64,000 nt of DNA, from positions 496,001 to 560,000 of the forward strand of contig JACQEZ010000011.1 of the NCBI GenBank assembly GCA_016200325.1, given 5' to 3'. This stretch comes from Candidatus Manganitrophaceae bacterium. GTDB lineage: Bacteria > Nitrospirota > Nitrospiria > SBBL01 > Manganitrophaceae. The position numbers were made by a program, and so were the translations under genes. The notes under the pieces were generated by a model. The model searched no databases, had not been told where the DNA came from, and saw only the letters and a list, made by a program, of their open reading frames with translations. Shown one piece after another: positions 11,368 to 14,257 of the stretch. Positions within the stretch are counted from its first letter, which is position 1. Each line of letters opens with the position of its first letter.

Positions 11368-12233
11368 GGAGACTCGCGCTCGGCACCGCCCAATTTGGCA
11401 TGACCTATGGTATTGCCAATCAAACGGGTCAAGTCAGCCGATCGGTGGCAAAGGCGATGTTGCGGCTGGCCGCGGCAAACCGGATCGACACGCTCGACAC
11501 CGCCATCGCTTACGGCGAGAGCGAGACGTGCCTCGGTGAAGCGGGCATCCCAGGCTTCAAGCTGGTGACGAAACTGCCGGTCGTGCCCGACGGTTGCGCG
11601 AACATCGGCGATTGGGTTCAGGAACAAATGTCCGCATCGCTCTCCCGTCTCGGCGTGGGCGCCATCTATGGCCTGCTCCTCCATCGCCCGCAGCAACTGC
11701 TCGGGGCGGAGGGCAAAGCAATCTATCAGAGTTTGCAGGGGCTGAAAGAAAGGGGGCAGATACAAAAACTCGGGGTCTCCGTCTATGCCCCAAGCGAGTT
11801 GGAGCTGCTCGTCCCGCGATATCGCTTCGATCTGGTTCAGGCTCCGTTCAATCTCGTCGACCGCCGTCTCCACGCCACCGGCTGGCTGCAGCGGTTGAAG
11901 GATGGAGGGGTTGAAATTCATACCCGTTCGGCCTTTCTACAAGGCTTGCTCTTAATGTCCCCGGCGATCATTCCCGATCAATTTGCATCATGGTCTCACC
12001 TCTGGAGCAAATGGCACAGCTGGCTCGCGCGCAATACCACCTCCGCCGTCCAGGGGTGCCTGGCCTACCCACTCTCTTTCCCCGAGATCGACCGTGTCGT
12101 CGTCGGCGCGGATAGCGTGAGCCAGTTAGAGCAGATTATTGATGCAGCAAACAGGGTCGCGCCGGTCGAGTTGCCCGACCTGCATTGCGACGCAGAAAAC
12201 CTGATTAACCCGGCCGATTGGTGTCGCTCATGA
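11364..12233 (+). CDS. aldo/keto reductase of the nonulosonic acid cluster
   Basis: 289 residues. It carries the AKR tetrad: Asp and Tyr in DTAIAYGESE (about 43-52), Lys in KLVTKLP (about 65-70) and His in LLLHRPQ (about 100-106). The start is GTAQFGMTYGIANQ, a form common in AKRs encoded beside SpsF-type cytidylyltransferases and nonulosonic acid synthases. The substrate is unknown; a keto or aldehyde sugar intermediate, or the product of the adjacent aminomutase-like domain, are options. It overlaps both neighbours by 4 nt (ATGA at each end), placing it firmly in the pse operon although it is not one of the six classical Pse enzymes. Confidence 0.88.
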   Translation: MRRLALGTAQFGMTYGIANQTGQVSRSVAKAMLRLAAANRIDTLDTAIAYGESETCLGEAGIPGFKLVTKLPVVPDGCANIGDWVQEQMSASLSRLGVGAIYGLLLHRPQQLLGAEGKAIYQSLQGLKERGQIQKLGVSVYAPSELELLVPRYRFDLVQAPFNLVDRRLHATGWLQRLKDGGVEIHTRSAFLQGLLLMSPAIIPDQFASWSHLWSKWHSWLARNTTSAVQGCLAYPLSFPEIDRVVVGADSVSQLEQIIDAANRVAPVELPDLHCDAENLINPADWCRS

Positions 12234-14257
12234 AAGTCGTCGCGCTCGTTCAAGCCCGGATGGGTTCCACCCGTTTACCGGATAAGGTGATGAAGCCGGT
12301 CGGCGGCATCCCGATGATCGAGCTGTTGCTCTCGCGTCTCTCGCGGGCAAAAGAGATCGATCAGATCGTTGTCGCCACCTCGGTCGATCCGCGCAATCGG
12401 CCGCTGAGCGATCATGTGCGCAAGCTCGGCTATTCGTGCGAGCAGGGGAGCGAGAACGACGTCCTCGACCGGTATGTCGAAGCGGCCGGGAAGCACCGGG
12501 CCGATGTGGTCGTTCGGATCACCGGCGATTGTCCGTTGGTCGACCCCGGATTGGTGGATGAAGTGGTCCGCGGCTTCAAAGCGGCGAAGGTCGATTACTT
12601 CAGCAACATCGATCCGCCGACCTACCCGGACGGGCTCGACATCGAAGTATGCACATTCAAGGCGCTGGAGCGGGCGAGACGGGAAACAAGCAGACCGCAT
12701 GATCGGGAGCATGTCACCCCCTACCTGCGCGAGTCGGGACGTTTCAAGACCGCCTCGATGAAATACAACCAGGACCTTTCGGGGCTCCGCTGGACGGTCG
12801 ATGAGCCGGCCGATTTTGCAGTCATTGAAAAGGTCTTTGGGCATTTCCATCCCCGGATCGATTTCACCTGGGGCGAAGTGCTCGGCCTGCAGCGCCGGCA
12901 GCCGGAGACCTTCAGCCTCAACCAAAATCTGATTCGCAACGAAGGAGCGACGATGGGGACCGGACAAAAACTTTGGAAGCGGGCGAAGCGGGTCATCCCC
13001 GGCGGCAGCATGCTTCTTTCCAAGCGGGCCGAGATGTTCCTGCCGGACCAGTGGCCCGCCTACTTCAGCAAAAGCAAAGGGTGCAAGGTCTGGGACCTCG
13101 ACGGCCGCGAATATACCGACCTGTCGATTATGGGGATCGGCACCAACATCCTCGGATACGGCCATCCGGAAGTCGATGACGCCGTCCGGAAGACGATCGA
13201 CGCCGGCAACATGTCGACCCTCAATTGCCCGGAAGAAGTTTATCTCGCCGAAAAGCTGGTCGAGCTCCACCCCTGGGCCGGGATGGTCCGCCTGGCCCGC
13301 TCCGGCGGAGAGGCGAATGCGATCGCCATCCGGATCGCCCGGGCGGCGTCGGGGAAAGACAAAGTCGCGATCTGCGGCTACCACGGCTGGCACGACTGGT
13401 ACCTCTCGGCCAACCTCGGCGACGACAAAAATCTCGCCGGCCACCTGCTGCCGGGCCTGGCGCCGAACGGCGTTCCGCAAAACCTCCGGGGCACCGTCTT
13501 TCCCTTCAACTACAATAATTTTTCCGAGCTGGAGACGCTGGTCAACACCCACGACATCGGCGTGATCAAGATGGAGGTGGTCCGCAATCAGGGCCCGCAG
13601 GACAACTTTCTCCAGAAGGTACGGCAACTCGCCACCGACCGCCGTATCGTTCTCATTTTCGATGAATGCACCTCCGGCTTTCGCCAGACCTTCGGCGGCC
13701 TCCACAAGCTCTATGGGGTCGAGCCCGACATGGCGATGTTCGGAAAGGCGCTCGGCAACGGCTACGGCATCACCGCCACGATCGGGAAACGCGAAATCAT
13801 GGAGGCGGCGCAGACCACCTTCATCAGCAGCACCTTCTGGACCGAGCGGATCGGACCGACCGCCGCGCTCAAAACGCTGGAGGTGATGGCGCGCGAGAAG
13901 TCGTGGGAGCAGATCACGGAGACCGGCAGGGACATTACGGCCCGATGGAAAGCGCTCGCCGAAAAATACGGCCTGTCGATTACCACCAACGGCTTGCCGG
14001 CGCTGACCGGGTTCTCATTCAACAGCCCGAACGCGCTCGCCTATAAAACCCTCATCACCCAGGAGATGCTCGCCAAGGGATACCTCGCCGGGACGAGCGT
14101 CTATGTCTGCACCGAGCATACGCCGGAGGTGGTCGCTCAATTTTTCGAGACGCTCGATCCGATCTTTGCGTTGATCAAAGAGTGCGAAGAGGGTCGCGAT
14201 GTCATGACGCTGCTGAAAGGGCCGGTCTGCCACGCCGGCTTTAAGAGGCTGAATTGA
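12230..14257 (+). CDS. cytidylyltransferase (PseF/SpsF-like) fused to class III aminotransferase
   Basis: 675 residues in one frame. Residues 1-240 are a CMP-sugar type nucleotidyltransferase: ALVQARMGSTRLPDK near the N-terminus, then VVRITGDCPLVDP and a HDREHVTPYL stretch. This domain is the best candidate in the window for PseF, which activates the nonulosonic acid with CTP. Residues 242-675 are a glutamate-1-semialdehyde aminomutase-like class III PLP enzyme: RSGGEANAIAIRIAR, CGYHGWHDWY, IFDECTSGFR and the PLP Lys in MFGKALGNGYG. At the junction an ATG (12953) lies in frame behind a strong ribosome binding site, so the second domain may also be made alone. The class III substrate is unknown. 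Coupled by ATGA to the AKR gene before it. Confidence 0.88.
   Translation: MKVVALVQARMGSTRLPDKVMKPVGGIPMIELLLSRLSRAKEIDQIVVATSVDPRNRPLSDHVRKLGYSCEQGSENDVLDRYVEAAGKHRADVVVRITGDCPLVDPGLVDEVVRGFKAAKVDYFSNIDPPTYPDGLDIEVCTFKALERARRETSRPHDREHVTPYLRESGRFKTASMKYNQDLSGLRWTVDEPADFAVIEKVFGHFHPRIDFTWGEVLGLQRRQPETFSLNQNLIRNEGATMGTGQKLWKRAKRVIPGGSMLLSKRAEMFLPDQWPAYFSKSKGCKVWDLDGREYTDLSIMGIGTNILGYGHPEVDDAVRKTIDAGNMSTLNCPEEVYLAEKLVELHPWAGMVRLARSGGEANAIAIRIARAASGKDKVAICGYHGWHDWYLSANLGDDKNLAGHLLPGLAPNGVPQNLRGTVFPFNYNNFSELETLVNTHDIGVIKMEVVRNQGPQDNFLQKVRQLATDRRIVLIFDECTSGFRQTFGGLHKLYGVEPDMAMFGKALGNGYGITATIGKREIMEAAQTTFISSTFWTERIGPTAALKTLEVMAREKSWEQITETGRDITARWKALAEKYGLSITTNGLPALTGFSFNSPNALAYKTLITQEMLAKGYLAGTSVYVCTEHTPEVVAQFFETLDPIFALIKECEEGRDVMTLLKGPVCHAGFKRLN
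12941..12947 (+). promoter_or_regulatory. internal ribosome binding site at the fusion junction
   Basis: GAAGGAG, then 5 nt, then an in-frame ATG at 12953, exactly where the aminotransferase domain begins. This is stronger than the binding site of most genes in the operon. It may be a relic of a once separate gene or still drive a second product. Confidence 0.55.

Follow-up and report, generated by a model that had tools for sequence, protein, structure and literature searches.

A synthetase–aminotransferase fusion gene with a predicted internal start site for its aminotransferase part

We consider it likely, on comparative sequence evidence, that a single gene of Candidatus Manganitrophaceae bacterium yields two proteins: a 675-residue fusion of an SpsF/PseF-like CMP-nonulosonate synthetase with a class III aminotransferase, and a predicted free aminotransferase of 434 residues. 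The gene occupies positions 12230–14257 of the window, that is, of the whole 64,000-nt stretch of DNA that was analyzed; the gene, its parts and its reductase, deacetylase, PseG-containing and PseI neighbors are located on the forward strand. Ribosomes starting at 12230 would produce the bifunctional enzyme of 675 residues, while other ribosomes would bind the Shine–Dalgarno (SD) letters AAGGAG at 12942–12947, initiate at the in-frame ATG at 12953 and thereby produce the 434-residue aminotransferase alone. This free aminotransferase would begin just ahead of the first helix of its fold, like its free homologues, and the RNEG(A) stretch preceding it would have a simultaneous role for protein and ribosome, with the SD being written in its codons. 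Both products may be made in the source organism, the free form presumably in excess, and the free form might pair with the fused form or supplement it. An earlier reading of the window, made from its letters only (hereafter the sequence-only reading), had proposed a usable second start, by which one gene could provide the aminotransferase in fused as well as free form; this proposal gains comparative support from the silent sites, from a bias toward the glycine codon GGA and from the locus L131, each of which is treated below.

The reading frame is open and uninterrupted for 675 codons from the ATG at 12230 to the TGA at 14257, and it joins, as the sequence-only reading had stated, an SpsF/PseF-like domain to a class III aminotransferase domain. 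The cytidylyltransferase part (residues 1–241; 12230–12952) contains the CTP_transf_3 domain PF02348 (E = 8.3e-27), which spans residues 4–169, and it matches the cytidylyltransferase PDB 6oew over query residues 1–232; this domain and the surrounding nonulosonate cluster identify the part as an SpsF/PseF-like CMP-nonulosonate synthetase. The aminotransferase part (12953–14257), which is also the predicted free product, contains the Aminotran_3 domain PF00202 (E = 2.5e-41; residues 276–618 of the 675-aa product), the mark of class III aminotransferases, and its PDB matches are glutamate-1-semialdehyde aminomutases. K506 of this part, which we take to be the PLP lysine, is invariant in 52 sequences. 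The equivalog cut-offs for HemL (glutamate-1-semialdehyde aminomutase) are missed in both models, with 188 bits versus 527 for TIGR00713 and 238 versus 486 for NF004856. In an AlphaFold2 model of the fused protein (mean pLDDT 86.9, 52 sequences), which we used to place the domain boundary, M242 is predicted to sit between the domains and immediately ahead of helix 244–255, so that the ATG at 12953 coincides with the modeled boundary. Free C-terminal homologues also begin near codon 242: Of 37 free or split rows, nine have an ATG exactly at this position and 26 have one at most eight codons upstream. As a separate observation on the aminotransferase part, residues 444–455 (13559–13594) form a second patch of few silent changes in the core clade defined below (G444, V445, G455 GGG), in addition to the one at the joint.

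The fused gene belongs to a cluster for a pseudaminic-type nonulosonic acid, in which it is accompanied by PseB, PseC, an aldo/keto reductase, a PIG-L deacetylase, a PseG-containing fusion, a formyltransferase and PseI. The PseB, PseC, PseG and PseI neighbors score above their cut-offs; for the pseudaminic acid synthase (PseI/NeuB; 17859–18911), TIGR03586 gives 505 bits versus a cut-off of 340. Directly downstream lie the PIG-L type deacetylase (14260–14940; PF02585), which is present in 9 of 62 loci, and the PseG-containing multi-domain protein with its C-terminal formyltransferase part (14934–17084; TIGR03590 at residues 2–300, PF00551 at 543–629). The latter protein has 716 aa, and a similar ORF of 751 aa is found downstream of the aminotransferase of another locus, L072. 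On the upstream side, the aldo/keto reductase (11364–12233; PF00248) has a homologue in all but one of the 62 fused loci that span 9 kb or more (61 of 62), and its stop is overlapped by the start of the fused gene in the tetranucleotide ATGA (12230–12233). The same overlap, between the ATG of the fused gene and the stop of the upstream long ORF, recurs in 46 of 57 usable relatives, with 26 of 83 being unusable, and this conservation suggests translational coupling of the fused form to the upstream gene. Taken together with the weak SD at 12230, the overlap in the window suggests that the 675-residue enzyme may be coupled to the reductase gene.

For the comparative analysis, over 588 candidate stretches were narrowed down to the best 80 in one selection step, which tilts the sample toward window-like genes, and duplicates with identical aminotransferase DNA were left out. 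Among the 155 distinct loci that match the aminotransferase, 97 have the fusion and 21 have split neighbors, while in 37 the aminotransferase is free. Ninety fused loci have an aminotransferase identity of at least 45%, and the joint is free of indels in 83 of them, the seven with an indel at this place being left out. According to the record titles, the 90 loci cover 12 named phyla, with the phylum missing for 16 loci and with some metagenome-bin titles, such as Bifidobacterium and Methanobrevibacter, being doubtful. A tree of the aminotransferases was built from 151 rows, four of the 155 being too short or too distant to be included. In this tree, all 90 fusions fall within one group of 113 rows, together with 23 free or split rows, and an adjacent group of 12 rows is exclusively free or split. 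The source genome itself encodes a second fused paralogue (L002; contig C7:66049-68085) with 35% identity and a different joint: The position equivalent to codon 242 cannot act as a start there, and an ATG with a duplex of −6.8 is located seven codons upstream. From the shared joint, the 12 phyla, the tree and the second paralogue it follows that the idea of a local or recent loss of a stop codon is wrong; by these comparisons, the fusion is old. The same evidence bears on the notion that a sequencing error or a young mutation in the source genome created the long frame: Split neighbors are indeed known in other lineages, but a gap-free joint common to so many fusions and phyla refutes this notion, the distant paralogue speaks against it as well, and we regard its probability as negligible.

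At the joint, the SD element GAAGGAG (12941–12947), which at the same time constitutes codons E238 and G239 and opens codon A240 with its last base, is followed by the spacer CGACG (12948–12952; 5 nt) and by the ATG of codon 242 (12953–12955), from which 434 residues remain up to the stop; the motif, its spacing, the ATG and the length of 434 residues had been given correctly by the sequence-only reading. The element is readable in the source genome because the 16S tail TGGATCACCTCCTT is present there, namely once. Its duplex reaches −8.0 kcal/mol versus −2.8 kcal/mol at the gene's own start at 12230, and the internal SD also outdoes the gene's own SD in 39 of the 46 relatives having both starts. 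The folding around the internal start is only mildly open, with −7.8 versus a mean of −10.9 and 20% of positions being equal or weaker. Fourteen ORFs of the window contain 115 in-frame ATGs in their interior, and three of these are preceded by an SD of 5 nt or more at a spacing of 4–10: They are located at 7882, 9156 and 12953, and the first two are probably true gene starts, the respective ORFs having been listed from an upstream TTG (7846–7882 and 9054–9156). When the peptide is kept fixed and the gene's own codon usage is applied, 27% of synonymous recodings match or beat the SD duplex of the window (p = 0.27). Therefore, the single window sequence is no better than chance, whereas the family-wide pattern is.

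The letters of the SD can be traced to the synthetase. The RNEGA peptide, whose codons occupy 12935–12949, corresponds to a C-terminal synthetase motif: In 17 of 36 synthetase ORFs that are not fused to an aminotransferase, an RNEG-type peptide is found near the end and is succeeded by about 8–20 more residues, whereas in the window fusion RNEG is succeeded by two residues and then by the methionine of the aminotransferase. Because unfused synthetases also have the motif, the SD is made of synthetase codons (Glu-Gly-Ala of the RNEG motif). The idea that the fusion had kept an old ribosome binding site of the aminotransferase after simple stop loss is thus not supported; in the free synthetases, the motif lies at least eight codons before the stop. 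We infer instead that the joint was formed by loss of the last ~10 codons of the synthetase, which would have brought the RNEG codons beside the ATG of the aminotransferase. The synthetase origin of these letters, however, also feeds an alternative that we judge unlikely, according to which GAAGGAG merely encodes the conserved RNEGA, Met242 is merely a hydrophobic linker residue and no internal initiation takes place. In line with such a by-product, the peptide predates the fusion, the recodings that equal the window's SD are numerous, 30 of the 90 fused loci have Leu, Ile or Val at position 242, and constraint is absent from the distant relatives described further below.

Against this alternative stands, first of all, the behavior of the silent sites. 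We defined a core clade of 44 fusions with an aminotransferase identity of at least 70% and a start-capable codon 242 and counted silent changes along its tree: Of 320 degenerate sites, G239 is the slowest and E238 the second slowest. These two codons spell AAGGA, and their neighbors N237 and A240 show ordinary silent rates. The ranks of both codons are unchanged on a full-length tree built without the joint columns, and when the clade was halved at random 100 times, codon 239 ranked fifth or better in 78 of the halves. With 10 changes versus a mean of 20.0 (standard deviation 2.7) across 115 four-fold sites, G239 represents the minimum of all, and it also ranks first among 29 Gly columns in a tree-aware test. 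The codon choice is, moreover, tied to the start codon: Where codon 242 is start-capable, GGA is used at 239 in 36 of 59 cases versus 14.4 expected (z = 7.0), while it is used in 4 of 18 cases versus 5.9 expected where 242 is no start codon. In free synthetases, the motif uses GGA in 4 of 17 cases versus 5.8 expected; the peptide motif as such therefore does not account for the bias. Among 16 conserved Met columns, a clear SD excess over synonymous recodings is found at M242 only (Z = −2.85; others −0.64 to +3.74), and at M261 the SD is depleted. Finally, AGGAG is retained in fusions in which Glu238 has been replaced by Ala or Gln (L021, L043, L023, L029 and L042), which a mere by-product of the peptide would not predict.

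A different function of the same letters would be a translational pause, in which ribosomes are delayed at the SD-like letters between the domains to aid folding and no initiation occurs. Its position exactly at the domain boundary fits this explanation, but a pause needs no start codon, and yet fusions with a start codon have an SD of 5 nt or longer in 32 of 60 cases, compared with 2 of 23 for those lacking one (Fisher p = 1.5e-4). When the tree is considered, the association of SD and start codon gives p = 0.03 in a Pagel test and p = 0.12 for GGAG alone; independent pairs on well-supported branches number five, too few to reach significance. The disappearance of the GGA excess where 242 cannot start likewise contradicts a pause, as do the more distant fusions with an aminotransferase identity below 45%: In six of these seven, no start codon close to the joint is preceded by a notable SD, L002 with its upstream ATG being the exception. 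We therefore assign this explanation a very low probability.

Internal initiation is further supported by a locus in which the two enzymes have come apart. L131 is placed inside the fused clade of the tree, yet its synthetase is separate and of a different kind. Remnants of the fused joint are preserved upstream of its aminotransferase, and TAAGGAG-N5-ATG (duplex −8.7) contains the only start codon visible there; as the frame is open, this site very probably starts the aminotransferase, which is difficult to reconcile with an SD that is a mere by-product. Two further loci took other routes: In L073 the synthetase has been lost and an RNEGAEL remnant retained, codon 242 is CTC, and an upstream TTG with its own SD is available, while in L072 the synthetase has been swapped for a very different one. 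Combining these cases with the origin of the joint, we tentatively propose a scenario that we hold to be well conceivable, though somewhat short of probable: RNEG, the codons of which spell GARGGN, may have constituted a ready-made ribosome binding site, so that trimming of the tail would have provided fusion and independent initiation in one step. Double selection on peptide and SD, in force since then in the clade of the window, might have produced a stable two-product metabolic gene that is able to split with the internal site as its sole start, as in L131.

The evidence for an internal start is not evenly distributed over the family. After thinning to below 70% identity (27 rows) the GGA excess at 239 is gone. 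Codon 239 is likewise unconstrained in the 16 more distant rows that have a start codon, with 44 of 50 sites being as slow or slower. As the signal is lost on thinning, our claim of an internal start is confined to the core clade, in which the SD is conserved at the nucleotide level and at working distance (AAGGAG-N5-ATG), and even there 17 of the 44 fusions have no SD of 5 nt. The sequence-only reading had named fused relatives without a conserved binding site as evidence against it; this description applies to the distant relatives, but not to the window's own clade. A start-capable codon 242 is present in 62 of the 90 fused relatives and missing in 28, so the predicted free product is dispensable in the latter lineages. 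By this pattern, its usefulness is limited to a part of the lineages, the others being able to do without it.

Fused genes are usually taken to encode one protein each. Judging by the silent-site footprint, however, the second part of this enzyme fusion, which is found in many phyla, probably continues to be produced separately as well; annotation would then miss a protein, and the stoichiometry would be set by two starts on one gene. In the present case, the ribosome binding site could be destroyed by synonymous changes with the fused enzyme being left untouched. A literature search, with subscription journals mostly outside its coverage, found no paper on the present fusion with an internal start.

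Related arrangements are known from other systems. In E. coli and Salmonella, in-frame alternative starts (clpB, infB, mrcB and others) give N-terminally shorter forms (PMC11005335). The internal start described here would give an N-terminally shortened form in the same way. To our knowledge, those starts are not located at fusion joints of two metabolic enzymes. The aminotransferase–MetRS of Mycoplasma penetrans is likewise a fusion of two enzymes, and its internal start is located where the domains meet: A small band observed in E. coli disappeared when Met-568 was replaced, and cell lysate contained a similar band (PMC7694997). There, the free part is the synthetase, whereas here it would be the aminotransferase, and the accessible text of that report treats one species and gives no comparative evidence. 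In type I-D, I-B and I-C CRISPR systems, the C-terminal domain within a larger gene retains an in-frame start (Cas10d/Cas11d, cas8/Cas11; PMC11899642), and as in these systems, one gene would here give a fused and a free C-terminal part. The two cases differ in that the free part of Cas10d/Cas11d is a structural subunit whose product is proven, whereas here it would be a metabolic enzyme predicted from sequence, and in that the SD is here made from codons of a conserved peptide of the upstream enzyme. In its anatomy and in its proposed use of two starts, the fusion resembles Cas10d/Cas11d and the M. penetrans aminotransferase–MetRS, with the free product being predicted in the present case.
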